Shown here: one piece after another, positions 9,725-36,700 of the stretch | How the letters are laid out: every line of letters begins with the position of its first letter | Position numbering within the stretch: position 1 is the stretch's first letter | Assembly (NCBI GenBank): GCA_027922465.2 | Contig: BQMF02000047.1 | Span: forward strand, 1,116,001 to 1,180,000 | Reading direction: 5' to 3' | DNA length: 64,000 bases | From: Turritopsis dohrnii | Taxonomy: Eukaryota > Cnidaria > Hydrozoa > Anthoathecata > Oceaniidae | Translations under genes and position numbers: made by a program | Notes under the pieces: generated by a model | Seen by the model: the letters and a program-made list of their open reading frames with translations, nothing else | Databases searched by the model: none | Told to the model about the DNA's origin: nothing

Positions 9725-11739
9725 TAAATCTGAAATGATTTGGCCTTTTTATTACACTGTTATAATATCAAGTCAGGGAAATTTAAGTAATCATTATAAT
9801 TGTAAGTTTTCAAAAATCGAAATTAAAACTTTTCATTGAAGTTACAATTTTCAGATAATTAAATTTTAATTTTTCTTGAAGATTCAATTTTCAAAAATCA
9901 AATAATGCTTGGCACTTTCGATACACGGATTATATATTGTCTAATGTTTCAACTTTGTTGAACGGAATCGGAGTTGGTACTGCCGCGCATCTAGTTTTTC
10001 AAAATTCCTGACCGGTTGCACGTAGACACGTCGTTTTGTTTTTGTTGATAACAATGTGAATGTTGTTACGATGAATGGTAATTAAATGCTTGAAACAGTA
10101 GAGCATTGAATCTGTGATTTCAGTGCAAAGTTGAAAGTTCATTATTAAAAGCCAGGCTGAAGGTTTTAATTTTATTTTCATCCTGAATGTAGCCTAACAA
10201 CTGAAAAAAACATGATCATGGTGTACACAGCCAAAGGAAACCCTTTTTATGTGGCGAACAGCCAGTTTTGTTACTTCAAAAAGTACATAACAAAAACTGC
10301 AAGTAAAAACGTGATATCATATATGCAAAAAGACGTTCAGAGAACCAATTTTGTAAAATTATTTTAAATACACAGGATTGAGACACGTAAATAACTTGAA
10401 AAAATCTGGTCGAATGTACTTCCCAGGATAGTCGTTTAATATTTTGTCAGAATTTATTTTGTTTTATATGCAGGTGCTTTTTTTTGTAATTATCAATGTA
10501 AACATTTTCTCACGTCACTCTCCACTGCTGTAGGCATATTTTTTGTAAGTGTCGATGTAAGTTAGGTACGGCCTTAAGAATTTCTTAAGAATATATTAGG
10601 ATGACTTTGAATAAAAAGTTAAGAATATTCATCATGAAACGAAATAACACCATTCTTATAAAAAAAAGCGTGTATCATAATTCCCCTTTACTTTTTTATG
10701 CAAAATTTTGTAAAAAGAGAAAAAGATAAAATCCGAATTACCTTACTTCATTCTCTAATTATCGTTCCGAAATGTTTTTTTTAAAAAAACATCGAATAAA
10801 AAGCGGTAAGTCAACTACTAGTTGCAAAACATCGGGCAGAAGAACCAACCTTTACAGATGGGAGGACTAAAAACTCTCGGTTACTTACTTATTAATGGAC
10901 ATCGTAACTCAAGTATGAATAATTATGCAGTTTAAATAATTATAGTTCAAAAACATCATCTAACAAACACTGGTGATATTTAAGTTATTTTTATCTACAA
11001 GCTAAACTGCTTCCAAGTTATGAAAGCATGTATGAAAATAAACGCCCCCCATATGAAATCAAATTTCATAACGCCCATTACATAGCGCCCGGCATGAAAC
11101 TTCAAGTAAATGCAGCTTAATAGAAGCATTACAAATCTGATTACTAGACACTGAGAAAATCTTTAAACCAATTTAGCTGCTTTCTGCTTTCAACCACAGA
11201 AGCTTTTACCCTATTACCCCGTTTTTAAGCCTCCCTCGGATTTACGCCCATGGGCATAAATATGCCCTTTTTTCACGCGTCCGGAACTTATGTTATGACA
11301 AGGCTGTTGACAAACGATAATGTGACGTAGCTAATATCGCCCATACACGTCATTTTAGAATCTTTTGAATTTTTTGTGAAGTGGTGATGACATGACGATA
11401 GAAATTATTTGGTATTTAAAAAAAAAAAAAAAGAAAAGAAATAGTTTTTTCTACATCTAAATTTCCCTCTCCCGAACGTTTTATTATCATAAAAAGTTAC
11501 ACCCACTCAACCCTTCTACCTTGTTAGCCTATTTCTTAATTTAATCTAAATTAGTATAAGTTATGTCCGTAATATTTATTATTATACGTTTTTATACATT
11601 ATACGTAACACCATGCATATATATTTTATCCTATACGCTTTCTCTGTAAGAAGAACCATATTGATGGATGCAGGAAATATATCGATTAAAAAAAAAAAAC
11701 AAAAAAAAAATGTTTTTTTTAAAAAAAACATCGAATAAA
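9725..11739. other. Intergenic with dispersed repeats, no gene seen
   Basis: No coding sequence is supported. Segments 10030-10150 and 10325-10440 recur in the same order and orientation at about 58240-58360 and 61670-61790. A 33-base hairpin-forming word (core TTTTTTTTAAAAAAA followed by CATCGAATAAAAAG) occurs at about 10770 and again at about 11709. Homopolymer A tracts lie at 11409-11422 and 11689-11710. Confidence 0.5.
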
Positions 11740-11830
11740 AAGTTCCATCACTAAGAGCTTCAGAAACTTCCCTGTATCATTTTCAATAAGATTGTGAATG
11801 AATTTCCCAAGGAACGGCATGCTTGTAAAA
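11740..11830 (-). pseudogene. Remnant of last exon of the secreted-peptide gene family
   Basis: On the minus strand this stretch reads MPFLGKFIHNLIENDTG, which aligns with VPLVGEFIHNLVQNDPEG in exon 4 of the neighbouring gene. The frame then breaks, but the nucleotide similarity continues through the stretch corresponding to the following residues. No other exons are seen nearby. It shows that at least three copies of this family once stood in this region, in the same orientation. Confidence 0.75.
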
Positions 11831-11994
11831 GTATGTGTAATAATAGCAATGGTTGTTTTGAAATGACCAGTACTACTTTTCATTCAATCAAACCAAAGAA
11901 GATTTTCTAACTCTTGCGATGATGAAGGAAATAAACAAAGTTTAATGAAATTTTACAATTTCTTCACTTTCAAGATGTACAATAACGATCATTA

Positions 11995-13637
11995 TCAACC
12001 AATATTTTTCATAACAAGTCCCAATATCGCAAAGATGCCACCACTGAGAGCTTTAGAAACACCCTCTGGGTCATTTTGAACGAGGTTGTGAATGAATTCC
12101 CCAACTAAAGGGACGCCTCTCAAAAAGCCAATTTGTGATAAGAACTTTAACTTTTCCAACAACACTATAAAATAAAAATATAAAATAGTCATAAAGAAAT
12201 CACAAATTTCAGAGAAATAATGATGATTAGTTTTTACCGCCACCAGTTAAAACATAATAGGACTTGATAATGCTATTTACTTACATTTTTCAAGTAATTC
12301 TTTTTGGGGATCACCACCACCTGGTGGTCCCACATCTGGACCACCTGGTGGACCCACATCTGGACCAGGTGGAAGTTGTCTTCGTTCACGTACCTCTTCG
12401 TCCAAATCGTTCATTACACGTTCATCAATCGCATCGAAATCCTCGCAAACCTAAAAGTGACGCAAACCATTACAAACAAACCATTACCTATACTTTGTAT
12501 ATATCAATTTCCCGACGAATTTTGCGCTTGAATTTTTATGAAATTTTAGCCACTTAAAAATTAGTGTTCAGCATAAAAATTCATGATTACATCTAAAACT
12601 AGCATGTAGCTTTAGCTAAAAATGCCCCCGCGCTCAAGCATTCTCATTTATACAGACAGCAAGCTATACATTAACAGCGGAAACGAAAACAAGTTTTTGG
12701 CCGAAAAAAAAATGTTTGGGTTGATTTGGGACCTGATATGAGGCAAAGTTATATGCTTAAGTATTTCGACAAAATCAGTTTTTGGCATTTCAAAACCAAC
12801 TTGCAATATGCAAACCAAATAGATCTACACTTAAACAGATGAAAATATGCACAAAACTTTGTTACTTTTTGTTATCTCTTAGGTCTAAGTTACACTGATG
12901 CTAATATACCTTTCAAAAAGTGTAAATAAGGCTTAACAAGTAATATTAGAAAGTATTTGCTACAAACAAGAGAAATGTGTGAATTGAAACCATGGATACA
13001 TATTTTATAATTTTTATAATTAAAATAAGATTTGTTAAAAACATTCTGTAAGAGCCAAAAAAAAACTTTAAAAAAAAAAAAATTAAAACGAAAAATCCAT
13101 ACGTTTCAAACTTTGATTTAAAACAAAAAATAGCCAAAGTTTACATAAAAAAAACAAGAAAAAAATATATAGGTTTTATTGATCGTGATCACACTAGGTT
13201 TGGAAGACAGTCAAAGAAAAAAAACACGAAGAACGACAATTTGTAATATGGCTTTCTTGTATACACAGAAATCCAACTAAAATCTTTTGAAGGCAAGATC
13301 CGCCAAAAATCAGTGCATTAAACAAAATTATTGAAAGAAAAATTTAGAGTTAAAATATATACAAAAATAAAATGTATGGTTGGCAAAATTTCGGATATCA
13401 AGCTGTGCTTCAAAATCCTCTTCGTTCATTTCACTAAAACAACACAAAAGTAACACGAAAAATGTCTAAGCAATTTTAGCATACGATCTTCCTAAATAAC
13501 ATAGTATAATATAATAATAAATTAGGAAAGAGAAAAACATTCTGTCTCCCACTTACAGTACCATGCTTTGAAACGGGAAAAAAAACAAAGTCAGCTAACA
13601 ATTGTATTCCACCGTGTAACGTCAACACGAAAGTTGG

Positions 13638-13672
<35 letters not shown>

Positions 13673-14134
13673 GAACAAAATCGGAAACTGACATTCGCCT
13701 ATCTCGTGAAACTACTATGCCTCCTCGCTCGCTTACGCTCGCTGCGGGGGCAATAAGGCTTAAGAAAAATCAATCAATTGTAATATCCGGGAATTCTTCG
13801 TATAATCGTCCTCATATGAAAACGAAACGCACCTTTCTTAATATGAATTTGAAATAAAATCGGAAAATGTATGCAGTATCCCTGAAGGTTTTTTTTTCAA
13901 ATCGGTGGAAAATTTGATACTATACGAACATACCTTAGCTGAGAAAACTTCATCACATGACATTTCCTTTTCCACAGGAATGGTCCAGGCTTGTGCAAGA
14001 AGCACAACTCCAATAATGACGAAAAGAGATTCCACTGAAAAAGAAAAAATGTATATTGAATACGCAAATGCAAACCAAAATGTTAAAAAATTCATTGGTT
14101 CTCAGAGCAAAAAATAAAGAATAATGAACTTACT
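11995..14134 (-). CDS. Secreted peptide precursor, paralogue A (4 exons, 145 residues)
   Basis: This is a novel-looking secreted precursor of unknown function. Exons (minus): start-codon A at 14134 (donor GTAAGT), 13934-14034, 12285-12450 and 11995-12164 to TGA. Intron 1 splits the ATG after its A, intron 2 is phase 0 and intron 3 is phase 1; every junction keeps frame. The protein begins MESLFVIIGVVLLAQA, a typical signal peptide. An acidic pro-segment with two Cys follows (EMSCDEVFSAKVCEDFD), then a basic cleavage site RERR. After that come an 18-residue insert with tandem PPGGPDVG units absent from paralogue B, and an amphipathic/hydrophobic block (LEKLKFLSQIGFLRG, then NDPEGVSKALSGGIFAILG) ending KNIG. 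The terminal Gly could serve as an amidation donor. The layout resembles antimicrobial or signalling peptide precursors of cnidarians, but I cannot assign it to a named family. Confidence 0.85.
13640..13671. repeat. (GAT)n microsatellite
   Basis: Ten or so perfect GAT units lie inside intron 2 of peptide gene A. They create a spurious poly-His/poly-Asp open frame that is not a gene. Confidence 0.95.
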
Positions 14135-14215
14135 TTTCCCTTGCTTTCTGTTGCACGATTTGTACGTTTTGAAGACACTGTCGAGCTAAATGAGTGTAGC
14201 TTGAGAACTCCTCTG

Positions 14216-14223
14216 CTTTTATA
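14216..14223 (-). promoter_or_regulatory. TATA box of peptide gene A
   Basis: TATAAAAG on the minus strand lies about 80 bases before the first splice donor. The paralogue has the same word at the matching place (24338-24345), and similarity between the two promoters extends about 300 bp upstream, to about 14465 and 24565, including the shared word CAGATTTAAACAGGCA. This conservation outside the coding exons supports both the promoter and recent gene duplication. Confidence 0.75.
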
Positions 14224-14557
14224 AAGAAATCAAGTCTGGAAAATATTTGCATGGTGAGGCTCCTGAATAAATAAAAATCAATGAAAATTATTGAAAAAAT
14301 AGTTTGCCCAGAAACTTTCATTACATCTCTGTCATTATTGAACTTTTAGTAATTAAATTAGATCCAAGTCGTAAAGACATAGTTGTTAATATTTAACCAA
14401 ATTAAACCTAAAGTAATTGTACATTTCACAAACAGATTTAAACAGGCACTTTCTTTGTTTGCTTTATGTAATTTCTTAATGAGGAAATTTTAATTAAATA
14501 TAATATTTGACTTTAAGACACCCAAGGTGGAGTAAAGTATTTAAAATACCCGTGGTT

Positions 14558-14588
14558 TCTCCTCCTCCTCCTCCTACTACTACTCCAA
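14558..14588. repeat. (TCC)n/(TAC)n microsatellite with shared flank
   Basis: A TCC run followed by a TAC run, preceded by AATACCCGTGG. A nearly identical arrangement (ACACCCGTGG followed by TAC and TCC runs) occurs at about 45190-45225, so the microsatellites are probably part of one dispersed repeat family. Confidence 0.7.
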
Positions 14589-14639
14589 GTTATGAAGGTT
14601 TACGTGCAGCGTTTACATGACATCGTTGCCGAATTCGCA

Positions 14640-15320
14640 AATTTCGTCAAATTAGGACTTCCAGTTCACTAATTTTCATGAAAATTTGCACAGAGCACAA
14701 TTGAGAAGTGCTGATTTCGAATTTGACAATGATTTTGCCAGGTTTGACTAATATTGGGCAATTTAGGCCAAATTTGGACCAAATTTCGAAAGTTCTTCAA
14801 TTTTCATGAAATTTTACACGGATCACAATTGAAAGCTGCTGATTTCAAAATTGACAATGATATTGCCAGGTTTGACTAAAATTGGCCAATTTAGGCCAAA
14901 TTTGGACCAAATTTCGAAAGTTCTTCAATTTTCATGAAAATTTGCACAGAGCACAATTGAAGGGTGCTGATTTCGAATTTGACAATGATTTTTCCAGATT
15001 TTACTAAAATTGGGCAATTTAGGTTAAATTTGGACCAAATTTAGAAAGTTCTTTAAATTTCAAAAAATTTTGCGCCGATCACATTTGAAAGGTGCTGATT
15101 ACGAATTTGTCAGTCATTTTGGCAGATTTGACCAGAAATGGGTAATTCGGGCCAAATTTGGATCAAACTTAGAAAGTTCTGCAATATTCATAAAACTTTC
15201 TACAACGCACAGTTAGAAGTTGCTGATTTTGAATTTGCCAGTCATTTTATTAGATTTGAACATAATTTGGCAATTCAGCAACGTTGTGTTTTTGAATGTT
15301 ATAAAAAATTTTCCAGTGGA
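14640..15320. repeat. Satellite/minisatellite with 128-bp period, about five units
   Basis: Landmark words (TTCATGAAAATTTGCAC, GGCCAAATTTGGACCAAATT, TGACAATGATTTTGCCAG) recur at 14675, 14803, 14931, 15059 and 15187, exactly 128 bases apart. Units diverge progressively towards the right. No open frame spans the units. Confidence 0.9.
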
Positions 15321-15483
15321 CCATATCAATTTGATCAGAAAAGTCAGAATAAAAAACAGTGTTTTATTCATGTTAAACGTTTCGGTGTTTGTCTTACACC
15401 ATGTTCACTAACAATGAATTTTCACGTATATATCAACAAGATTATATAAATAATTATATAAATGGCGTACAAAAGATATCTAT

Positions 15484-17700
15484 TCAGAAAAGCTCCAGTG
15501 GATATGAAGCAACATTAACATTTAAGTTTGGCTTAAGTTTCTTCACGGTCAGCGATTCTTTGATCAACAGTTCTTTGTCGCTCTTCCCCGTTGCAAAAAA
15601 CTTCACATTATCGAGGAGCACTCCATGATTATTTTGCAGACAGTGTTCTGTCACGGCGGTTGGTTTTCTCACATCTCTGTGTTCGTTGAAGCATGTTTGC
15701 ATGTGACGTTTAGTTTTCCCCACATAAACCGAAACGCAATCTGTGCAGTGCACTCTGTACACCACGTGAGATCTGAACCTTTTAGGTACACATTTCTTTT
15801 TATAAGAAACCTCGATTTTGGGCTCAGGACTGGAGTTGCTAAGCATTTTTAAGAATCCAGGGCTAAAGTTGCTTCTAAGGTTGCTTAAAAATCTTGAAAT
15901 GATAGCTTTGTGTGTTTGTATTTTTCATAGATTTTGGTTATATAGTATTTTATCAAACATTTGATTCTTCATATTATTATGACTATTTCTATCAAAGAGT
16001 AAGAAAAATGCTTACAATGCACAAATTGACTCATTTTACCCATCTATCACTGGTAATTTTAGTCTGTCTTGATGGACAAAAAGAAATTTAAACTTATGTG
16101 AATTTTTTTTTTGGATTTTGTAGATTAAAAAAAGTTGTTATGAAGATTTCAGGGCTTAGGGTTGCTAAGCAAGTTGCTTATTTTTTTGGCCATTTTGAGG
16201 GCTGAGCCCTTAGCAACTCGGTTGCTTATAAAAAAAATGTGTATGATGTCTTTGTAGCGAAACAGATCACCAATACGGCATGTAGTTCTGAAAATTATTT
16301 TCAAATCAACTTGTGGATAACATAACGAGAACACAGCAATAATATCTTTCTTCAATTTTTCAGAGAGTTTTCCATGAAAGGGTAAGATTAAAAATACTTC
16401 CTTCTTCGAAATTGTGTCAATAACTTGTGGCTCTTCAGACATTTCCATTTTAATGATGAAATTCTTTATGATTGTGTTCAACAATGGCTCTGGGTACAAA
16501 TTTTTCAAGAGGTTGATTTTAATGATATCACAGTCTTGCTCGAACAACATCTTATCAGAACAAATGTTCCAAGCTTTATATAACAAGCACTTGACCAAGT
16601 TCATCTTATATTTCCTGGGTGTAAAACTATTCCAGTTGGCATACAGTCCAGTATGTGTTGGCTTGTAATACGTACTCGTCTTGAAATAATTTCCATGCTT
16701 CATTACTTTCACGTCCAGGAAAGGGAAAAAAACTGTTGTTAGGTGTTTCCTCCTCTTTCGTGAATGAGATGTTAGGATGAAGTCCATTTAAATATGCAAA
16801 GAATGGTTGAACATCAGTGCTATTTTTAAATATTACGAAACTGTCATCTACGTAGCGACGGTAAAATATTGGTGAATTACCAGGAAAATTACGAAAAGCC
16901 ATTTCTTCGAAATGTCTTACGAAAATATTTGCCAACACTGGAGCTAACGGCGAACCCATTGCTACTCCATCAATTTGATCATAGATTTTTCCATTGAAAA
17001 TAAAGTTGGTTTCTTTGGTTGACATTTCCAATAACTTTTTGAACTGTGGTTTTGATAGTCCACACACTGCATCACAATTTTCAAATACATAACGCAAAGC
17101 AATTTCAATGGTTTCATCCAATGGAATACAGGTGAAAAGGCTCGATGCATCAAAACTACAGATGTGTGAGGTAGCCAAATTCAAACCTACTTACTTTTTG
17201 GACGAATGTGAAAGAATTCTTGATTGTGTAATTATTATTAGCGTATGGAGACAATATATTAGCTAGTTCTGCAGCTAAACGATAGTTGTAAGAGTTAATT
17301 GATGAACAAATGGGTCTTAAGGGATGATTAGCTTTGTGAACCTTGGGTAAACCGTATAGTCGAGCTGGTTGAGAACCACCGGGACGGACTTTTTTGTAAA
17401 AAACTTCAGAAATTACACCTTTTTTCTTCAAGGAAAGTAAATGTCTGATCATTTTTTCTTCAGGTTTCATTGTTGGATCTTCATCAAGTAAACGCATACT
17501 GAACGGTATACCAACTGGAATAGTTTTACACCCAGGAAATATAAGATGAATTCTGACTTTTCTGATCAAATATGCATCGTTGTATTACGTCCTGAAGTCT
17601 TCAAGCCAAGCGGCTTCTTGTTTATATTCAGGTCGGCAAAGGTTCCCAAAACGGACCTTTTTTCATTCTTTTTGTATTCAGGTTTACGTATCATTGTTTA
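15484..17700 (-). pseudogene. Penelope-like retroelement: RT plus GIY-YIG endonuclease, broken
   Basis: This is a Penelope-like element polyprotein, a reverse transcriptase related to telomerase fused to a GIY-YIG endonuclease. In minus-strand order: 17569-17156 holds GGSQPARLYGLPKVHK and PLRPICSSINS, typical RT fingers. 17184-16627 holds motif A (CSFDASSLFTCIPLDE), motif B (GVAMGSPLAPVLANIF) and motif C (FYRRYVDDSFVIF). 16787-16149 holds the thumb and connector. 15846-15484 holds the endonuclease, VVYRVHCTDCVSVYVGKTKRH. At least two frame changes (near 17175 and 16750) and an insertion of about 0.4 kb between connector and endonuclease inactivate it. The 5' end near 17700 fades without a clear boundary. 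Confidence 0.92.
15830..16225. mobile_element. Small insertion splitting the Penelope element
   Basis: This stretch interrupts the Penelope frame between GDLFRYKDIIH and SYKKKCVPKRF, which would normally be close together. Its two ends carry GAGTTGCTAAG in opposite orientations, and TTGCTTA/TAAGCAA words recur inside. It is probably a MITE. Exact limits and target duplication are not certain. Confidence 0.6.
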
Positions 17701-18835
17701 CAAATATTTCATACATAGACGTTCAATACTTATGTACGTAGTTTTTCCCATTTCTCTTTCATGAAAAAATCAAAAACTTACTAAAAAGATATGAAATGAT
17801 GAACATATCGTGAAAAATTTTAAGGCTTTCTGCTTTTTTTTTAACATGCCCGCCGATAACATAGATAATAAAATAGCAATGCATGAAATTTCTGAGATAT
17901 TCGCTCGTGTAGACAAATTTTCTGTATATATTTGTAATACCTGCTATGAACAGTAATAGTGCCCCTCGAATTTTTGTAATTTTCTAATTTTAGAGCTGGT
18001 TAGTATAATTTAGGGGATCGTTATAAAAACTGCTCGAATTAGTATAAATTTGGTACTGATGATTTCAACAAAGTTCACAACTGGAAATACTTCAGTGAAA
18101 TCAAACAGACTAAAACCTAAACGGACTTCAGTATTCTGAAGATTCATTTCATTAACTAACAAGATTAATTGGTAATATATTTCTTACATGTAGGGTTTTT
18201 AGGGTAGATTTTGGAAAGCAGTTTCAAGTTTATTCAGCGATTTGCCAATCTTTTCCCAGAACATTTTTAATACGAGCATATTATTTTTTATTTTCACACG
18301 GAAGAAAGCCATCGTTTAACGATATCGAAAGGATAGTGATTTTGTCTTGTTTATTTATCTATCTGTCTATCTATCTATGTACAGTGATGCTTCCAAATGG
18401 CTGGACTTTCTGTAACTTTTAGCTTTGCAAGGGCATATTTACTAATTTTTGAACTCAATCGATTCAATTCTTGAAGTTTTCTATCTAGTGGAAAAATATG
18501 ATATAGTCAGGTCACTACCGATTAAAATTTTCGATTTTAAAACATTGCTGCGGATTATTCAAAACCTTAAAAAATGATAATGTTAATCCTTTCCCATCGA
18601 GAAAATGTTTACTGGCACCTTTAATTCCGCCAAATAAGTATTTATTAAAGATTCCAGGTTGTAAACCATTTGGATGCGCTAACAGAAGTAGAAGGAAAAA
18701 TTTGAAAAATTGCAATTTGACCCCCATATATATTTTGTATCTGAAGAAGACATTCATGTCGGCATGATTTTCAATTAAAATGAATGAGTCTGACTTTCCG
18801 TATGAACATGTTATAGTGGAATTGTGACGTCACAG
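17701..18835. other. Intergenic, no gene seen
   Basis: AT-rich sequence with a short TATC run near 18355. One minus-strand frame (18515-18727) starts with a hydrophobic signal-like stretch, but nothing else supports it. Confidence 0.4.
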
Positions 18836-19180
18836 TTAAGGCCCGAGTAAACAGATCCAACATTTACATCCAACACCCAAAAATAGGTGTTGGATAAGAT
18901 GTTGGATCTGTTTAAATGCACTCTTTCATCCAACATTTTTTATGAAAAAAGGAAAAAATAATGTTGGATCGTGTTGGATGAAATTGTTCTGGATCAAATT
19001 TTTCATCCAACAAAATGGCTGAAAAATGCGTGTTGGACGTGTTTAAACTGATTTTTCATCCAACATCTTATTTCGCGCCAAAAAATTCGAATTTCGAATA
19101 CTTTTTCGAATTACATTACAGTAGAATGTTTGTTTTGATTTTTAATTTCTAAGAGCAGTGTGTATTCATTCAACAAAACG

Positions 19181-20114
19181 ATGGACAGCAGTGACTCAGA
19201 CTCAACAGGATCAAAACAAAAAAGCCCTTTAAAAGGGCGTGTTTTTAAAAAGCATTTGACAAATAAATCTCAAGATGGAAATAAGAATACAGAAGAGCCC
19301 CAAAAGGAAGTGACGAAAGCAAAAAAAGATAAAGCACCAAGTAAAGGGGCAAAAGATTGGTTGGATGATGAAGTTTCGCTTCTGATAGAAATGTTAGAGG
19401 AAAGACCCTGCCTTTGGGATGTCTTCAATAAGGATTATTCAAAGCGCGATGCTAAAGATGTAGCCTACAATGAAATTGCTGATGTTTTACAATGCAATGT
19501 TAACTCTATCAAAACAAAGATCAATGGTTTAAGAGCTCAACTAGGGCGTGAAATGGCAAAAGTAAACAAAACCAAAAGCGGCCAAAGCACCCGACGAGCT
19601 TTATGTTAGCAACTGGACCCATTACAAGAGCTTGGTATTTTTACAGTCGGTTATGAAAGCATCTAACAGCAAGAATACTCTAAAGCAACCTAACGAAGAT
19701 CTTGATACAGAGTGTACAGACGTACCCGAAGTATCTAGAAAGAAATCAAAGACAATGGCAGAGAGGAAAATAGAGTTATTAACAAAGTGTACCGATGCAA
19801 TAACATCCAGCAGCAAAGAATCCCAAAGTCAAGGAGTAAAACGTACGGCATTCGCAACTTACATCGATGAAAAGTTGTCTACCTATAATAAGCGGCAGAG
19901 AGCGATTGCAGAGAAACGTATCAACGATGTTTTATTTGAAATTGAAATGTCGGATGGATGCTATCAGTCATTCCCAAATTCGCAGCCTGCTCCACAACAT
20001 GTATCGAGTGCTACATTTCAGCATCCAACTTTCCAATTTCAAAACCGAAATCCATACCAGCCAATGGAACAAGGAAATGAGTCATACTTAGAATATCTTA
20101 ACAGCTCAAAGTAA
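19181..20114 (+). pseudogene. Harbinger companion MADF/Myb-like protein, single frameshift
   Basis: This is the DNA-binding partner of the Harbinger transposase. The ATG at 19181 opens MDSSDSDSTG, then a Lys-rich region and a MADF-type domain: DDEVSLLIEMLEERPCLWDV, DYSKRDAKDVAYNEIADVL, NVNSIKTKINGLRAQLGREM. Near 19588 one extra base ends the frame (TRRALC, stop). The continuing frame reads DELYVSNWTHYKSLVFLQSV, which is the expected end of a MADF domain. The C-terminal part follows (LDTECTDVPEVSRKKSK, RQRAIAEKRINDVLFEIEMS) to the stop at 20114, 110 bp from the end of the transposase. It could be a sequencing error, because the rest is clean. Confidence 0.85.
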
Positions 20115-20224
20115 CTTTTTTTCAAACTTTTGTATGATAGCCACTATAAATTATATATGTATAACAGTATAATTTGGTTACGAGAATACAAATATATACA
20201 AGTATATAGTTGACCACAATAAAA

Positions 20225-21478
20225 TTAACAGTATTTCCATTGCCATGACACAGCACCATCTGTAACGAAATAATCCTTAAAATTGTCTCTTATACCCTTT
20301 GCAGAAGCTTTTGCGTTGTGACCACTTCTAGGTACTTGCAATGGATAGAAAGTGTCTCCTGTTATCACATCTCTTCTCCACTCTCCTTCGGTTACCTCGC
20401 CAGTTGAATTAACATAATCGGTGAGGGAGGTGGGTCTATATGCATTTGTTGAGCTAAGGCTTTTTAACAACATATTATGTAAAATTAAGGTGGATAAAAC
20501 AATATCCTTGACGATTTCTGGTTCCAAATTGATGATTGTAAAGTAAATTCGCCATCTATTCGCAAGTATTCCAAATAGGTTTTCCGAAATTCTCCTTGCA
20601 CGACTATGTCGGTAATTGTAGATTCTTTTATTCGCTGATAAATTCTGCTGAGGGTAGGGCTTCATCATAAAGTTTTTCAAGGCAAAAGCGTCATCACCAA
20701 GGAAAACATAAGGCATTTTGCATTCATCCATTAAATAATCATCGTCAGGCAACTTTATTGACCCATCCTCTATTCCTTGAAGCAGCGAACACTTGTTCCA
20801 TATCCCAGAGTCATTTACCCTGCCATTTGACCCAATGTCAGCATATAGGCATTCATAGTCAGGCCCAGCAATTGCTAATAGTATAATTGAATGTGTATGC
20901 TTATAATTATAATAATACGAGCCTCCATTATCAGGCTTCACTATCCGCACATGTTTTCCATCTATCGCACCAAGAGCGTGAGGGTAATTCCAACGTTGCT
21001 CAAACTTTTCAGAAATTTGTTGCCATTTAGCCGAGGAATCCGGAACTTTAATGAAAATATGTTGCAATCTTTCATTAATCGCACGACAACAACCTTTTAT
21101 AATATATGAAACTGCGGCCAAAGAAATTCGGAATTGGTAGCTTAGAGATTTGAAAGATTCACCAGTAGCGAGGTATCGCAACGTTAGTGCTAATCTTTCA
21201 TCAGGTTCGATAGGTTTGTTTCCACAAGCTCTATTTTCTGTTGAGATAAGATCAGAGATCTGACTGAGGATGTATTCATAATCTGCAACACTCATCCTGA
21301 ACATGTCTCTAAAACCAATACGGTCTTCTAATTTAAGTTCCTGGAAAATGTTTTGAAAGTAGCCACTTTCCTTCCTCCTTTTTATCCAGTCCCTTGTTTT
21401 TCCTCTACGAGGCTTTTCATCGTCTGAATCCATTAACTCTGCTAGAACAAGCACGAGTGCACTGTTTAAAGCGGCCAT
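20225..21478 (-). CDS. Harbinger transposase, intact (417 residues)
   Basis: This is a DDE_Tnp_4 (HARBI1-like) nuclease-recombinase. The ATG at 21478 (MAALNSALVL) is chosen because the ten codons before it have no ATG. The N-terminal region includes a helix-turn-helix-like part (DERLALTLRYLATGESFKSL). The catalytic core follows: Asp in ALGAIDGKHVRI, the GGSYYYNYKHTHS block, YADIGSNGRVNDSG, Asp in YVFLGDDAFALKN, Glu in RHSRARRISENLFG. The length suits the family and no stop or frameshift is seen. With its partner broken by only one base and perfect termini, this element looks recently active, or still able to mobilise the related MITE at 24833-25496. Confidence 0.95.
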   Translation of the reverse strand: MAALNSALVLVLAELMDSDDEKPRRGKTRDWIKRRKESGYFQNIFQELKLEDRIGFRDMFRMSVADYEYILSQISDLISTENRACGNKPIEPDERLALTLRYLATGESFKSLSYQFRISLAAVSYIIKGCCRAINERLQHIFIKVPDSSAKWQQISEKFEQRWNYPHALGAIDGKHVRIVKPDNGGSYYYNYKHTHSIILLAIAGPDYECLYADIGSNGRVNDSGIWNKCSLLQGIEDGSIKLPDDDYLMDECKMPYVFLGDDAFALKNFMMKPYPQQNLSANKRIYNYRHSRARRISENLFGILANRWRIYFTIINLEPEIVKDIVLSTLILHNMLLKSLSSTNAYRPTSLTDYVNSTGEVTEGEWRRDVITGDTFYPLQVPRSGHNAKASAKGIRDNFKDYFVTDGAVSWQWKYC

Positions 21479-21830
21479 ATTGAATGAACCAAAATAAATA
21501 ATAAACACGCGCTATGCTGTTGGATGTAAATGTTGGATGGTCCTTTCAAACAGCAAAATTGTTCATCCAACATACATCCAACATTTCATCCAACATTATA
21601 GAATATGTTGGATATGAATGTTGGATCTGTTTACTCGGGCCATTAATTTTTTAAAATCCTTTATTAAAAGCGAAGTAATGGTATTTTATCAGATTTTATA
21701 AATAAGCCTTTGGAACAATTTAACCAAAGTTGTATTTTTGACGTTACTTATCTCCTTCAAAAAGTAAATTAAATCTGCTTTACCAATACAGTAAACATAA
21801 GCAAATCAGAAAAGATTTCCTGAAACTCCA

Positions 21831-23160
21831 CCCAGCGGGCACACGACGTCTTTGAGATGTCTCATTTTAATCGTAAAATGGTCGTTTGCTTTTCAGATCA
21901 TTTTGCGTCGTCGTAGGCAGGTCTGAAAATGGGACGTCGCAATTGGGATCCTTTTACGATCAATTTTGACCTGATAAAAATTTAAAAATTTCATTCCGCA
22001 GTCAGTAAACAGTATAAATCGAGTAACACTTACATGCTTTTATAAGAAATAAATAAAATAAATTTACATTCGTATCGAATTCTGTTTATTGGTCGTGTGA
22101 GGGATGATTTTACGACGTATTTGGGACGTCTTTATAGATTAAATAACGACCTTCGAAACAATTACAATTACAACATCATTTTGCGATGTTGTACAGACGT
22201 CTGAAAATGGGACGTCCAAATTGGGATCCTTTTACGATCAAATTGCAATCTAATGAAAATTTTCAAATTTCAATATGCAGTCATTAAACAGTATACTTTG
22301 AGTAACAACAACATACTCCATATGGAATTTACATTCGTACCGATCCTTTTTCTTGGTCGTGTTAGGGATGATTTCACGACGTTTTTGGGACATCTATACA
22401 GATTAAATTATGACCTTCGAAAGAATTATAAATTTTCAAAAGCGATTAGTCAACAAAGATTCATCGAATATGTTTTACTACAGTTGCGTGTTTTAAAGAA
22501 TTTAAAATAGACCAATCGCAAATACGTAAGACAAAGAGGAATTCCCGGGTTATAAAATCCACGTGTGATATACAGAAAGTTTCAAAAGCATAGACTTTCT
22601 TGTAAGAAAAGGTTAATACTGTTAATAATGATACATGTAACATAAGTTTCGATAAAAAAGACGTTTCGATAAAACTTAGAAGAATTAATAAAACTGGCGT
22701 TTAATGGCGTAATAATGGCGTTTTGTCAAAGGTAAACTGGCAAAGTGGAAATGGAAAAACATCTTGTAAAGATGATCCTGTTACCGAAGGGAGTTTTAAA
22801 TGTGGAAATGGTGGTTCAAAATTTCACAACTTGATAACAAATTAGCTAGTATATCTGGAATAGTAAATTCTTGTGTTGTAAATTTTTATAAAGAATTATA
22901 AAGGCGACATCTTGAATTTTTATGTTTTGTTGGCCTATGATCTCAGGAAAAGGAGGTTGTTAATCGGACGTCTCTACGATGTCGTTACGGCCGGAGATTG
23001 ACGTCGTTGCGATATCGTTGGGATGTCGTCGAGACGTCTCAGTAAAGATGTGATTGGGGCATCTTTTGAGATTCCCACTTCGCGACCATTGAGCGACGTC
23101 TTTGGGACGTCTTGGTAGACTTCTCTACGACGTCTTTACGACGTCTTTGTGCCCGCTGGG
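21831..23160. mobile_element. Nonautonomous element with CCCAGCGGGCACA ends and internal tandem duplication
   Basis: The inverted ends read CCCAGCGGGCACA and TGTGCCCGCTGGG, followed by GACGTC/ACGTCTT words scattered throughout. Two tandem units of about 290 bp (about 21885-22180 and 22185-22440) share long stretches such as TCTGAAAATGGGACGTC and GGATCCTTTTACGATCAA. It has no coding frame. A solo end of a related family (CCCAGCAAACACAAAAACGTC) lies at about 44329. I cannot assign a superfamily. Confidence 0.8.
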
Positions 23161-23267
23161 CAGTGATAATTTGCAATGAGGCAGAAAATATACACAGATC
23201 AAAAACAAGGTTTCATTTTCTTTATATTCAAAACGTAGCTACAATGATCGCTGTTAAATTCATCTGC

Positions 23268-24255
23268 TTATCCAAGTGCTCCTAAAACAAATGGTAATAA
23301 TGCAAAGATGTTACCACTGATAGCTCTAGCAACACCCTCTGGATCCCTTTCAACGAGGTCTTGGATGGCTTGCCCAACGATAGGGATGCCTTTCAAAAAT
23401 CCAAGTCCTGATAAGAACTTTAACTTTTCCGTCAATGCTATAAGACAAGAAAACGATCAAATTTCTAACAGATAGAATAACTGGTTTAAATTTCTTTCTT
23501 GCATTCAAAAGCAAAAAAAGAAGGTTAATTGTTTGCAATGAATATTGACTTACCTCTTTCAAGAAAAACCTTGTCCAAACCACCAGGAAGTTGTCTTCGT
23601 TCACGTACCTCTTCGTCGAAATCGTTCATGACTTGCTCATCAATCGCATCGAAATCCTTGCAAACCTTAAAGCATACAAACGTATCTTTACGATTTTGAT
23701 TTGAAATTTTGTTGATCCATAGTGGAAGGAAAACGAATATTTAATTTCTTTATAATTGTTGCAACTTCGGCATTTACAGTCGATTCTCGAAAGCTCCTAC
23801 TTTCGATTTCTCGCACTCCTCGACAACTCGAACTTTTTTTATCGATTCCCTTGACATAATAGTTAGTGTAATTTCTACTAATTTCAACTCTCGATAACTC
23901 GAACTATTTTTTTGGTCCCCTGATTGCTCGAGTTTTCGAGATGCCAACTGTATTGAACTTGTCAAAGAAACATTGAACGAATTTTTTTCAAATCTGAAAT
24001 GATAGGATATTTGCTATATTCTATAAAGACGATTTAAAGAATTCGTTCTCATCTGGATGAGATATCATACCTTAGCTGAGAAAACTTCATCACATGACAT
24101 TTCCTTTTCCACAGGTATGGTCCAGGCTTGTGCAAGAAGCACAACTCCAATAATGACGAAAAGAGATTTCACTAATATGGAAAAAAAATGTTTTGAAATA
24201 AAAATTGTAGTAATAAATGAAAAATGAGTAATAAATGAAAAATGAAGAACTTGCT
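23268..24255 (-). CDS. Secreted peptide precursor, paralogue B (4 exons, 127 residues)
   Basis: This is the paralogue of the gene at 11995-14134, of unknown function. Exons (minus): start-codon A at 24255, 24071-24171, 23554-23665 and 23268-23437 to TAA, with the same intron positions and phases. Intron 1 has a GC donor (GCAAGT) where paralogue A has GTAAGT. The signal peptide MKSLFVIIGVVLLAQA is followed by TIPVEKEMSCDEVFSAKVCK, an acidic run (FDAIDEQVMNDFDEE), RERR, then QLPGGLDK directly joined to the C-terminal block (LTEKLKFLSGLGFLKG, ERDPEGVARAISGNIF) ending LGALG. It lacks the PPGGPDVG insert. After RERR the new N-terminus would be Gln, able to cyclise; the final Gly could be an amidation donor. 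The mature part has balanced charge and a strongly hydrophobic end, suggesting membrane interaction (inference). Confidence 0.85.
23777..23950. mobile_element. Mariner/Tigger-type MITE in intron 2 of peptide gene B
   Basis: Inverted ends CAGTCGATTCTCGA and TTTTCGAGATGCCAACTG are flanked by TA on both sides (23775-23776 and 23951-23952). The interior repeats ACTCGAAC words. The length of 174 bp is typical of this class. Confidence 0.8.
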
Positions 24256-24337
24256 TTTCCTTTACTTTTTCCTTGCACGATTTGTACGTGTTGAAAACAC
24301 TGCTCAGCTGAATGAGTGTAACTCGAGAACTCCTCTA

Positions 24338-24345
24338 CTTTTATA
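24338..24345 (-). promoter_or_regulatory. TATA box of peptide gene B
   Basis: TATAAAAG on the minus strand stands at the same distance from the first donor as in paralogue A. GAGTTCTC and ACTCATT are conserved just downstream, where transcription should start. Confidence 0.75.
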
Positions 24346-24832
24346 GAGAAATAAAGCTGAGAAAAATATTTGCGTAGTCAGCTCCTGACTAAATGAAAAT
24401 TGCTTAAATGCAAGTTTACCCAGAAACATGAAATAAATTTTATTGTTGAAGTTAATGCGTAATTAAATTTGTCCCAAACATCCCAAATATTTAATCACAT
24501 TTAACTTAAAGTAATTGAGGGTTCTAAACAGATTTAAACAGGCATCGATTGTTTGTTTCATATCAATAATAAAGATGAAAACGTTTGAACAGATCAAATA
24601 ATTAAATTAATAAATAAATTTGCTGCATACAGAAAAAAATGAAAAAGTGCAAGACATGTGTAGCTAATATGTACTTTTTTCCTGTTGAATTTAATGTGAA
24701 TGCCTAATGACAGTTCAGTACACCTTTCCTGAATTTCTGTTTAAATGTCGAGTTAATGCTTAGTTTATCAAGTTTAAACTTGTTTCTATGTATTTTATTG
24801 TTTTTCTAATTTAATAATGTTTTCAGTAAAGC

Positions 24833-30755: not shown

Positions 30756-33700
30756 ATGATGTTGAAGTCTTTGGTTGCAAACCCATTTACCAGAGAATCG
30801 TTAAACTCAAGAGGTAAGGTTTTGGTATAATACGAAAAAGGGAAAATGTCTTTATTTGAATGAAAATAAAGTCAAATTATTGCTCTGGGGAGATGTGGAA
30901 TATGAGATATATAAAATTATAAAAATAGAAAAATGAAATGTATCAGTTGAATTCTAATAAACATAGTTTTAACTGCCTTGTGGTAGAGTGCTTGCTTCCT
31001 GTTTGGGAAGTCATGGGTTCAACCCCCGACCAAGTCATGCCAGCAACTATAACTGTGTGAATCACTCCTCTCTCCAGCACTCAGCAATACAATAATACAG
31101 CTTTTGTAGCCCAAATGCGGGCTTTAAATGCTTTAAATGTCCTTCGCAGGACTCTAATTGATAACAGTACCTTAAGGAACTGAAGAGGCTATCCTGGGTA
31201 AACATTCGTTAAAATAAAAAAAATAAAAAAACATAGAACATGATTGTTATATAATTTCTTTATGTAAAAGTTACAGGGAATTTGTTTTTTGTCAAAGATG
31301 GGGGTTGTCCTTTCTGAAAGTCTTTAATTTCATTATTTTATGATGCTTAATGTTTTCTTCAGCTCTTTCAACAATCTCAGAGCAAGAGATGAGTCAATTT
31401 CAAAAGTTTACTAATGAATGGTGGAGGCCTGGTGGTGAATACACTGCATTGCGAAAGTTGAATGAGTTACGTGTGCCTAGGATAAAACAGTTACTACTAA
31501 AAGACAGTGTTTCGTCCCAGCATTTTAGGCCATTAACTGGTTTTAAAGTTCTAGACGTTGGAAGTGGCGGAGGAATATTATCTGAGGTAAAATGTCATCT
31601 TTAATCTTGATCATGACCTTGTTAGCTTAAACAATTTATGAATTTCAAACATGTGCATAAAGGGTCATTCCACCTCAACTTAACAACTGGTCCCCAGGTG
31701 ACCCTCTCAGATTTTGGTAATTTTTTGCATATTTTGTTCATTTATTAAAGATTAGAAGATCCTGAAAATTTCAGGTCAAAATCTTAAGCGGTTGGAAAGT
31801 TATGTCTATTTGAAGTTGTCATGGTAAGAGTAATTTAACCTCAACGGGTGCCAAATTGAATTTTTTTGTCATTTTCAAGACTCAATAACTTTTTTTCTAC
31901 TTTAGATCACCCTCTGAAATTTAGGAAATGAATATAAACTCGAAAAGGCTATAGAAAATACCCAAATTGACATTTTCAAATCTTTCAGAAAATCCATAAT
32001 GGCAGCTTGAAAATTGAAAAAAAAAACGCAAAATTGAATTTCGGGCCATTTTTGAGAAGCAATTACACCAATATTACACTAACATATGTATTAAAACTTA
32101 TAAATATGATAAATATACTAGGAATACTACCAAAACACAAAAAAAACAAGAGATTTATGTGACTATGTCCAATTCTACAGGCATCTCAAATGTGACCCAG
32201 CAAAAAAAAATTGCAAACACATCAAATCTTAAGTGCGTAAAGCAATCAAAAAAGCTGACTTTTGATACTGATTTTAGGTATATTAAATAAAACTAGCTGA
32301 TATACGGTATGTAAGCTTAAAAATATGATAAATATACTATTAGCAGAATAATGGAAGCTGTTTTTTATTAGTATCCTAAAACTGAAGTCTTGGCTTAAAA
32401 GCAGAAATCAGTTGGTGTCAACTAAAATTGTATTGTAGAACTATCTTATCAAAACATTAAAATGCAAATAAATTTGAAAAGTAATAAAGCCAGAAAATTA
32501 AAAAATTGATTATTTAATTAAATCAGTGACAAGCTGTTTAAGATGGTTATATGAAAGGGAAGCTAGATCGATGTGTTTATAGGTAGATTAAATTTGTTTA
32601 CATTTTAATGGAATAATTCTACAATACATTTTTAGTTGCCAGTTGAAGTCAGTTTTTTGACATTTAAAGCCTATTATCTTAATTTATAAATAGTTATTTT
32701 TGTTTTTGTTTTTATTTTTAAGGGTTACAATTTTCATATTTTCCTAAACTATGGCCGAAGTGCTTTACATACTGAAGATTTAGTATCTGCGATTTTATTT
32801 GCTAATCATGTTTGAGATGCTTGTAGAATTGGAGATAGTCACATAAATCTCTTGTTTTTTTGTGTTTTGGTAGCATTCCTAGTATATTTATCATATTTAT
32901 AGGTTTTAATGCATATGTTAGTATAATATTGGTGTAATTGCTTCTCAAAAATGGCCCGAAATTCAATTTTTCGGGTTTTTTCAATTTTCAAGCTGCCATT
33001 ATGGATTTTCTGAAAGATTTGAAAATGTCAATTTGGGTATTTTCTATAGCCTTTTTGGGTTTATATTGATTTCCTGAATTTCAGATGGTGATCTAAAGTA
33101 GAAAAAAAGTTATTGAGTCTTAAAAATGGCAAAAATGAACAATTTTTTGACATTTCAAGCCTATTATCTCAATTTTAAATAGTTATTTTTGACTTTTTAT
33201 GATTTCTAAGGGTTACAATTTCCATATATTCCTATACCATGGTCAAAGTGCTTTACATACTGAAGATTTGATGTGTTTGTGACAAACGGTTCTGAAATTA
33301 TGGCATCTTCTACTTTGAAAAATCTCAAACGACCTCACAAAAATCCAATTTTTTCCATTTTTTACCAATATTGAACTTAAAAATTAGTCTAAAAACCATC
33401 TTGAATCCACTTTTTTTATTGGATAAGTGAATTACTAAGGATGTTGGGCTTTTCTGAGTTGAATTTTCATTTTTAAAAAATATTTCCCAAGTAGGTTTTT
33501 TTGATACTGAGTGGAATCCACATTTTCGCATTTTTTTGCTGGGTCACATTTGAGATGCCTGTAGAATTGGACATAGTCACATAAATCTCTTGTTTTTTTG
33601 TGTTTTGGTAGCATTCCTAGTATATTTATCATATTTATAGGTTTTAATGCATATGTTAGTATAATATTGGTGTAATTGCTTCTCAAAAATGGCCCGAAAT

Positions 33701-36700
33701 TCAATTTTTCGTTTTTTTTTTCAATTTTCAAGCTGCCATTATGGATTTTCTGAAAGATTTGAAAATGTCAATTTGGGTATTTTTTATAGCTTTTTCGGGT
33801 TTATATTAATTTCCTAAATTTCAGAGGGTGATCTAAAGTAGAAAAAAAGTTATTGAGTCTTGAAAATGACAAAAAAATTCAATTTGGCACCCGTTGAGGT
33901 TAAATTACTCTTACCATGACAACTTCAAATAGACATAACTTTCCAACCGCTTAAGATTTTGACCTGAAATTTTCAGGATCTTCTAATCTTTAATAAATGA
34001 ACAAAATATGCAAAATTTACCAAAATCTGAGAGGGTCACCTGGGGAAGTCCCTTCTGAATTTGCTAAGTTGAGATGGAATGACTCTAAAACAATTTTAAA
34101 ACATATCTGTATGTATTTCACTTTTATTTGCAATACATATACTTTTAATATTGAACTGGAAACCAATTTATTAATGTATATAATATCAAATTGTCAGGTA
34201 TACAAATCACAAGTTAGGCCTCAAAACTTGAACATTTCAAAGTTTTTATCACAGTGACGATATTAAAAATGCTGCACACTATCATAATAAATTGACAGTT
34301 TATTGGAAATGGGCAATCCCTGTAGTAGTCTGTTTATAATTCAAACAGACAACGGTTTTAGATCAGGTTTCTTTTTTTCCATTTCTTAGATAATTGTTTT
34401 GGAACATCTTTTGTGCGGTTTTTTGAATGATATGAATAATTTTCAAGAACCTCTTGCATATTTTGTACAAAAAATTTCCTTCTTTTTGGAATGTTTAAAA
34501 CTTTTATTTTAGTGAGTATATATGATCAATTCTACTTGGTACCAGTCTTTTAATGTCTGATGAAAAATGATTCATGACCTAAATGAACTTTTGCACACAA
34601 ATTTTGTTTATTCCGTTATTCACCACTTTTAGAACAAATTAGATTTTTCAATATTGAAACACATGCTCAAATTTCCATACCTTTTGTTTACTGTGTGCTC
34701 AGGTTCATTAACAGAATTGTGAAAGTGTTGTTTGCTCGAATCAAATTTATTTGAAACCTATAGTGACAAGTTTCTAAAGTTATTTTAAATTTACTAGGTC
34801 ATCAAGAGTATCTCTCGATAACCTTTTACAACTGCTGTATATAAATCATTTCCATATCTCCTCTGCTACATTTATTATGTTCGTTTTGATGACTCGTGAA
34901 AATACCTTTAACCTTCCCTCTTAACTCTTTAGATCAGCTAGAATATCTATCAGCTGCATTGACCTTATTGGATTATAGGTAACAAGTATGTGATGACACA
35001 AGAATGACAAAAAAGCCCAACAAAATAAACAAAAAAAAACATAAAAAACACAAGAAAAACAGCAAGAGCACAAAACAAGAAAGATGTTACTGATAGGATA
35101 AGGAAATATCAGTTTGAAGACCATCAAGTCAGAGAACACAAAGTTATTTTTTTTATTTAAGAAGCCACCTACAGAACTATGTTAGCATATTTTAGGAAAA
35201 TTGTCACTATGAAGAGATATAAAGTCACATCACTTCCAATTATTATTCAGGGTTCACAGCATCTGGAAATTCAGGGGAAAAAAATATGTTTAACAGGAAG
35301 TTTCTGTAATGCCAGGGACCCAAACTTCTATCAATTTTTTTTTTTTTGTTTTTTTTTGTTTTTTTTTGTTTAACTAACATAGTATTGTAATATCTTCAAT
35401 CCTAATTTGAAATGTAAATTGATACTTCTGGATGTGTAATCTTGAATCTTAATCTTAATCGCAGTTTAAGTAGGCAATAAATTCACGAAAAAACAGGGTG
35501 TTTTTAGAGAAAAATCAGGAAAAATGATACCTTTTTAACTCCTTAAAGTCGGGGGAATCAGGGAAAATATTTTGGGAAAAGTGCTACGAACCTTTGTTAT
35601 TGCAAAATAGATAAAATAGAGAGAAAGTAGATTTTAGAAGTTAAATAATGATTAATAATGATTACACTCAATAATAAGAAAATAAGAAAATATTAACTAA
35701 TAAAAAAATAATGTTGAATGTTGAATAAATTTGTATCAAACCTTCACTAAGAATGACCACAGTCAGGTGTTTGGTGTTATTGTAGTGTATTATTTTATTT
35801 AACCAGATAGAATGAATTCTTTGAAATTCAAAGGATGTTTTTTATGTGAAAATGTTTTTGATTGAAATTCAACTTAAGCATGTTTACCTGCTACTTTGTT
35901 TTAATACAGTAAAGAGTCAACTATAGTTCCCTGTTCCCGTTAAATTAATGCCAAGCCAAGAAAAACTTGGCCGAAGGGGGGATTTATACATGCGAATTTT
36001 TCGCGCGAAGTTAATTTTTCGCTGGTGGACCATTGTTTTGGAAAAGTTGATTGTGCAATAAATTTCGCTTCATCGAATTTTTAGTCGTCTACAGTGTAGG
36101 ATTGTCGCTTGTCAAAAATTCGCTTGTGAACCAATCAAAGTACAAATAAAATGCTGATTTAACAGTAATAATTAATTCAGTAATAATTCAGTAGTTTTAT
36201 AAGTAACAGCTTCTTAAATTTATTCATCTTGTTTGTTTACAACCAGCCATGAAAACACTAATTCGAGCGCCAAAGTTTTGTTTGTGTAAATCGAGTTGAG
36301 GCGATTTTTTGCCGCTAAATGAAATATTCGCTGTGTGTAAACCCGCCTTAAATGTATTAACCAGTAATGATCATATTCCCCGTATAGAAAGTTATCTAAA
36401 AGTTTGTGTACCAAGGTAAAGTGAACTTAAAAAAACTTTTGTAGGCACCACACCGTTTCATTTCATATATGCTTAGTTTGGTTTATTCTTTCAGTAACTG
36501 AAATTCGCCATTAATTTTACAGTCTCAACATCTTTTATTATAGCCACTAGCACGTCTAGGTGCTGATGTTCTTGGTATTGATCCGTTACCTGACAATGTT
36601 GAAGCAGCGACAAATCATGCTAAATATGATAAACAGTTAGACAGCTTGAGCTATCAATGCAGTGCGGTTGAAGATCTTAGTGAAACACACCAAAATCATT

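Follow-up and report, generated by a model that had tools for sequence, protein, structure and literature searches.

Predicted secreted peptide precursors of a multigene family in the hydrozoan Turritopsis dohrnii, with relatives in Hydractinia and Clytia

Among the secreted peptides of cnidarians, the closest described counterparts of the genes reported here include the arminins of Hydra, which the accessible text of PMC12013895 presents as having a signal peptide, an acidic N-terminal region that is removed to free the active part, an alkaline C-terminal region and a C-terminal Gly thought to be amidated. The accessible part of PMC10945409 describes the antimicrobial-peptide families of Hydra as multi-copy and restricted to that genus, homologues having been found in neither Hydractinia nor Clytia. 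Arminin-like peptides are also known in Trichoplax. More generally, pyroglutamate is common in cnidarian peptides, as are XP or XPP starts, which block aminopeptidases (PMC8638164, accessible text). Here, we describe two genes, A and B, encoding predicted secreted peptide precursors in a stretch of 64,000 nucleotides of Turritopsis dohrnii DNA (contig C47, 1116001-1180000; hereafter the window, with positions counted from its first letter), together with the wider family to which they belong. Judged from their sequences, their products are very probably processed peptides blocked at both ends, because a signal peptide, an acidic pro-part, a convertase site, a Gln-Leu-Pro start and a Gly, GlyLys or GlyArg end are found in combination.

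Both predicted genes lie on the minus strand (A at 14198-11995, B at 24320-23268) and have four exons apiece with matching order and phases, as a preliminary description of the window, drawn from its letters, had proposed; the predicted products comprise 145 residues for A and 127 for B. The start codon is split in both genes, its A lying in exon 1 and its TG in exon 2; the exon 2/3 junction is of phase 0, and the exon 3/4 junction falls after the first base of a codon. Intron 1 of gene B is GC-AG and the other five introns of the pair are GT-AG. The TATA boxes claimed for both genes are present, and the exon 1 starts are assumed from them, in gene A 25 bases after the box. The precursors, too, bear out the layout first described: an N-terminus that, judged by its hydrophobicity, is signal-like; an acidic pro-segment with Cys-x8-Cys, the pro-region having a net charge of -7 in B and -8 in A; the RERR site followed by Gln; and a C-terminal Gly. 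The length of 60-70 residues given for the C-terminal part holds for B, with 69 residues after RERR, and not for A, which has 87 because it carries a Pro/Gly repeat linker. The features are as follows.

14224 to 14423, minus strand: 200 bp upstream of gene A, conserved against gene B (z 8.0 and 4.4 against shuffles)
14216 to 14223, minus strand: TATA box of gene A, TATAAAAG on the minus strand
14134 to 14198, minus strand: exon 1 of gene A, 5' untranslated region (UTR) and the A of the split ATG, with a GT donor at 14133
13934 to 14034, minus strand: exon 2 of gene A, remaining TG of the start codon, then the signal peptide and the first half of the acidic pro-segment with the first Cys
12285 to 12450, minus strand: exon 3 of gene A, second Cys, remaining pro-segment, RERR site, QLP and Pro/Gly linker
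12379 to 12390, minus strand: predicted RERR cleavage site of gene A, followed by QLP, from sequence reading and gene model
11995 to 12164, minus strand: exon 4 of gene A, conserved core (predicted helical), ending in KNIG and then TGA (profile expect value, E, 6.4e-30)
about 11736 to 11858, minus strand: decayed, frameshifted extra copy of exon 4, 3' of gene A (profile E 6e-4)
24346 to 24545, minus strand: 200 bp upstream of gene B, conserved against gene A (same shuffle test)
24338 to 24345, minus strand: TATA box of gene B, from sequence reading
24255 to 24320, minus strand: exon 1 of gene B, 5' UTR and the A of the split ATG, with a GC donor; start assumed from the TATA box
24071 to 24171, minus strand: exon 2 of gene B, signal peptide and first half of the pro-segment
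23554 to 23665, minus strand: exon 3 of gene B, remaining pro-segment, RERR, QLP and start of the mature part
23594 to 23605, minus strand: predicted RERR cleavage site of gene B, followed by QLP, from sequence reading and gene model
23268 to 23437, minus strand: exon 4 of gene B, conserved core (predicted helical), ending in LGALG and then TAA (profile E 6e-26)

Since gene B alone, queried against about 5.8 billion proteins (E up to 1), returned a single match at E 7.3e-35 and 54% identity, LOC130644269 of Hydractinia symbiolongicarpus, and a three-sequence profile then found 13 proteins, including 12 further ones at E 3e-13 or better, sequence comparison indicates that the resemblance is not due to chance and that the family is a real one. 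A 15-sequence profile found 18 proteins, the two profiles together giving 20 distinct ones among the 7,999 candidates sharing most words, which were those scored. The named relatives are the one from Hydractinia and three from Clytia hemisphaerica (uncharacterized; E 2.6e-27 to 4.3e-24), the latter each on a contig of 676,460 bases and so probably on a single contig; the others are metagenome sequences, and four of these frames (P0015-P0018) begin at the exon-4 boundary. Thus, the profile search recommended in the preliminary description yielded relatives in Hydractinia and Clytia and no known family. Its proposal of a lineage-restricted family fits the named relatives, all of them hydrozoan, although the limit itself is inferred from searches of limited reach in which most of the 20 relatives are metagenomic; likewise, no Hydra protein is among the named matches, which, most matches being metagenomic, is no proof that the family is missing from Hydra. 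Membership in a named family was rejected, as Pfam gave no match above cut-off for the two window proteins and 19 relatives, NCBIfam matched 0 of the 19 relatives and the PDB held no credible sequence or fold match; the original view of a multigene family of secreted peptide precursors belonging to no named family is supported. Similarities to Cdc37 (E 0.029, query residues 43-79) and Spidroin_N (E 0.25) were taken as chance, because a profile search did not recover Cdc37 and the stretches concerned are acidic or short. A literature search, mostly of papers open without subscription, found no publication matching the LOC130644269-like family.

The count of two genes is right for the window; genome-wide (891 contigs, 435,911,712 bases, searched with DNA and protein queries, so that counts are lower bounds) there are at least nine intact-looking copies, namely A, two near-copies of A, B, a near-copy of B (B'), D1, D2, E1 and E2, all nine with open frames, splice signals and phases intact. 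Near-copies of gene A and its surroundings came up in the DNA query on contigs C798 and C348, with all exons and splice signals retained. Two C47 stretches are missing from them, window 10773-11498 and about 12599-13751; the start of the second (about 12592-12700) matches some 39 other places in the genome at 87-100%, which suggests that this stretch is a repeat that entered intron 2 of gene A. The protein query found B' on C86, an inverted pair, D1 and D2, about 24 kb apart on C220, and two divergent copies, E1 and E2, about 3 kb apart on C68 (537900-542600), which have the exon phases and Cys-x8-Cys of the family, but neither a dibasic site nor a C-terminal Gly. Queries with the D1 and E1 cores recovered the same set and one weak extra match (C535, E 1.5). 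The copies on C798, C348 and C86 are piecewise 95-99.6% alike, and the heterozygosity of T. dohrnii is given as 1.88 in the accessible text of PMC9835754; some near-copies may be alleles retained in the assembly rather than paralogues. The 43 kb of C798 and 50 kb of C348 that were inspected showed nothing corresponding to gene B. The decayed exon of the preliminary description proved to be the frameshifted exon 4 copy listed above, and it also adjoins both near-copies of gene A.

The processing marks that the preliminary description had pointed out, namely the dibasic site, the Gln start and the C-terminal Gly, are conserved across species. Among 16 members scored for the pro-region (nine relatives and seven T. 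dohrnii copies, the two A near-copies excluded), [K/R]R precedes the mature part in 14, followed by Q[L/M]P in 13; the exceptions are P0003, with REKR followed by GLS, and E1 and E2. Cys-x8-Cys occurs in 13 of the 15 members whose N-terminal part is complete. The C-terminus was compared in 24 complete chains, after P0002, P0008 and P0020, with run-on or cut ends, had been left out; it is G in 15, GK or GR in seven and neither in two (E1, E2). Within the T. dohrnii genome both kinds are present, G in A and B and GR in D1 and D2, and such coexistence is the usual sign of amidation. All nine delimited mature parts lack Cys. From alignments of the relatives and the T. dohrnii copies we read a core motif in the last exon, to which A and B conform: K-[LIV]-x-[FWY]-[LI]-x3-G-x-L-x2-[IV]-P-x2-G ... 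V ... [SNKA]-G-x-I.

Between A and B, identity is 98% in exon 2 (99/101 bases), 85% in exon 3 (95/112 aligned bases), 75% in exon 4 (127/170 bases) and 86% from the TATA box to the end of exon 1. When upstream and intron sequences were scored against dinucleotide shuffles, the roughly 300 bp of conserved promoter that had been claimed shrank to the first 200 bp upstream of the TATA box (z 8.0 and 4.4), beyond which the alignment is no better than shuffles (z -0.4 for bases 201-300 and 0.7 for 301-400). The conservation claimed for the introns applies to their positions and phases and not to their sequence, which is hardly conserved (63-69% identity versus 66-73% for shuffles; score z 0.6 to 3.1). 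The ratio of nonsynonymous to synonymous divergence (dN/dS) for A versus B is 0.25 over residues 1-61, comprising signal and pro-segment, against 1.28 over the exon-4 core, the corresponding figures for A versus B' being 0.24 and 0.98. Put differently, dN between A and B is 0.30 in the core versus 0.03 in signal and pro-segment, with amino-acid-changing differences at 30.5 of 122 core sites versus 4.5 of 145 (Fisher p 3e-7); the released core thus changes about ten times more per amino-acid-changing site between these two young copies. B and B' differ in the core by one synonymous and six amino-acid changes, and in signal and pro-segment by four and two. The gene parts do not differ significantly in synonymous change (Fisher p 0.54); the near-identity of exon 2 (98%) may stem from gene conversion or from synonymous constraint. 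When the core of A is set against those of D1 and D2, dN/dS is 0.17 and 0.30, with synonymous sites near saturation, which on sequence grounds amounts to long-term constraint.

A core tree sets A beside Clytia-like rows and B beside Hydractinia. An ancient split of A and B was nevertheless rejected, as the approximately unbiased (AU) test is compatible with a clade of A, B and B' (p 0.215) and synonymous divergence between A and B is low (dS 0.24); for the same reasons we read them as young copies with fast change in the core. Tract-wise gene conversion between A and B may provide an alternative history. Precursor layout, cleavage site, Gln start, the Gly, GlyLys or GlyArg ends, the duplication and the fast A/B change of the core are all given by sequence comparison.

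From these features we infer the processing itself, the site of expression and an action on membranes, and propose the following course. After removal of the signal peptide, a furin-type or prohormone convertase would cut after [R/K]xxR, and the acidic, probably disulphide-linked pro-segment, which might hold the peptide inactive until the cut, would be discarded. The new N-terminal Gln-Leu-Pro would then cyclise to pyroglutamate, and the C-terminal Gly would be converted to an amide, in some members after trimming of a trailing Lys or Arg. The product would be a cysteine-free peptide of about 65-90 residues, in which a Pro/Gly linker, variable in length, is joined to a core that is helical, hydrophobic and amphipathic. 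Released from epithelial, gland or stinging cells, it might act on membranes in host defence, or against prey or competitors. The fold and helicity of the core are model-based: AlphaFold2 predicts four helices in the mature part of the Hydractinia protein, with block pLDDT (predicted local distance difference test) values of 78-89.

The peptides most likely serve defence or signalling. We tentatively lean, by analogy and with somewhat less than even confidence, towards a membrane-active host-defence peptide with an arminin-like layout that is not cationic, because of the likeness to the arminin layout and the multi-copy antimicrobial families of Hydra (PMC12013895 and PMC10945409, both as far as accessible). 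The multi-copy arrangement with near-copies and inverted copies, as in those Hydra families (accessible text of PMC10945409), counts towards defence, as does the faster A/B change of the core than of signal and pro-segment, and the core of the divergent E2, at a charge of +6, favours membrane activity (core-only charges are +3 for D2 and +2 for E1). Several observations pull the other way. The net charge of the mature part (K+R-D-E) is 0 for B and -2 for A, and lies between -2 and +1 in the seven delimited members with intact ends (P0001, P0003, P0004, P0005, P0014, A, B), unlike typical cationic antimicrobial peptides; the values of +4 for P0002 and -1 for P0008 belong to a run-on tail and a cut end, respectively. 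A strictly cationic antimicrobial peptide was accordingly rejected for A and B, their mature part being neutral. The A/B core dN/dS does not exceed 1 significantly (Fisher N versus S p 0.83), and the three copies of gene A differ at six coding positions, all amino-acid-changing, too few for a test. Eleven invariant core columns among 19 relatives, and the core constraint between A and D1, look more like a peptide with a specific partner. Processing is not family-wide, with E1 and E2 lacking both cleavage site and C-terminal Gly; the core of gene B modelled by itself reaches a mean pLDDT of only 63, with a different helix pattern; and no solved structure in the PDB resembles the family.

The strong conservation of the core motif across species and the purifying selection between A and D1 (dN/dS 0.17) would suit a large amidated peptide hormone or paracrine signal, whose blocked ends and conserved core would be bound by a specific receptor, and pyroglutamate, an XP or XPP start and a C-terminal amide are standard marks of cnidarian neuropeptides (PMC8638164, accessible text). 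We nonetheless consider a hormone unlikely: each precursor holds a single copy with a core of about 55-60 residues, whereas the neuropeptide precursors of that text hold short peptides, often in many copies, and multi-copy genes with fast A/B core change are less usual for hormones. Variation of the Pro/Gly-rich linkers, together with the abundant taxon-restricted short secreted proteins of Clytia larvae, for which antimicrobial or adhesive roles are offered in the accessible text of PMC12225738, would agree with a role in structure, adhesion or mucus, or as part of the nematocyst contents, devoid of direct membrane attack. To this we give still less credence, as a structural role does not need conserved end-blocking signals, and the PF1 proteins of Clytia, set apart here by description and not by sequence, bear cysteines and have no non-Clytia relatives in that text. 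That the gene models are wrong or the genes silent relics appears highly improbable: a frameshifted exon copy does adjoin gene A, gene B, with its GC donor, is missing the core His that is otherwise conserved in the family, and both genes are known from genome sequence alone, but frames, splice signals and phases are intact in nine copies, signal and pro-segment evolve at a dN/dS of 0.25, and four relatives (P0002, P0003, P0008, P0014; three of them on contigs of 1.6-1.9 kb) cross both positions of the coding introns without a break, as would presumably be seen in spliced transcripts. Beyond the membrane-active defence peptide that we favour, one may speculate, with considerable doubt, about a class apart, made up of large near-neutral helical peptides (about 65-90 residues, no cysteine, both ends blocked) that are widespread in marine hydrozoans and act via a defined target, be it a specific receptor or an ordered membrane pore. 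In such a class signal and pro-segment would stay nearly fixed while the core changes fast after duplication, and E1 and E2 would be an older branch that kept the core and the Cys pair and has no cleavage or amidation signal, maybe an uncut ancestral form.

The window holds other elements besides. Just upstream of gene A is a tandem array with a 128-base period (14663-15302), followed by a broken reverse-transcriptase element on the minus strand (15484-17584; at least four overlapping frames, RVT_1 at E 1.8e-7 in 17190-16630). A DNA transposon, which we take to be Harbinger/PIF-like, lies between A and B (18840-21641); it has 36-base inverted ends (18840-18875 and 21606-21641, 94% complementary), a DDE_Tnp_4 transposase frame on the minus strand (21511-20225) and a MADF-domain frame on the plus strand (19139-19609) that goes on in a different frame. 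Another DDE_Tnp_4 transposase frame is found at 153-1070 on the plus strand, and a 956-residue open frame with endonuclease and reverse-transcriptase domains at 45867-48737 on the minus strand. Two methyltransferase exon-like frames (31344-31604 and 36544-36798), the second matching Methyltransf_11 at E 3.3e-12, presumably resemble COQ3.

Its presence in Hydractinia, Clytia and Turritopsis makes the family a concrete candidate for peptides of defence or signalling in marine hydrozoans, since the antimicrobial families known from Hydra are described as having no homologues in Hydractinia or Clytia, exactly where the LOC130644269-like family occurs. Hydractinia and Clytia are, moreover, laboratory models that permit gene removal. 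LOC130644269 and the three Clytia hemisphaerica proteins belong to the same family as A and B, with Clytia P0004 and P0005 differing in having no Cys pair in the pro-region. The PF1 proteins of the Clytia planula, as described in the accessible text of PMC12225738, are likewise taxon-restricted, short and secreted and encoded by several homologous genes; by the same description, they have conserved cysteines and no similarity outside Clytia, in contrast to the Cys-free mature part and the relatives in Hydractinia and Turritopsis seen here. With the hydrozoan neuropeptide precursors (GRFamide, GLWamide, X1PRX2amide), the family shares convertase sites, Gln starts that would yield pyroglutamate, XP or XPP starts and a C-terminal Gly that would yield an amide, to judge from the accessible text of PMC8638164; those precursors hold short peptides, often in several copies, as against one long, predicted-helical mature segment in A and B, and among the sequences described in that text none resembles the core. 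Finally, compared by description only, the arminins have in common with A and B the signal peptide and acidic pro-region, the C-terminal Gly and the multi-copy genes, and differ in their alkaline C-terminal region, as against a mature net charge of 0 in B and -2 in A, and in their confinement to Hydra, as against the occurrence of the LOC130644269-like family in Hydractinia and Clytia.

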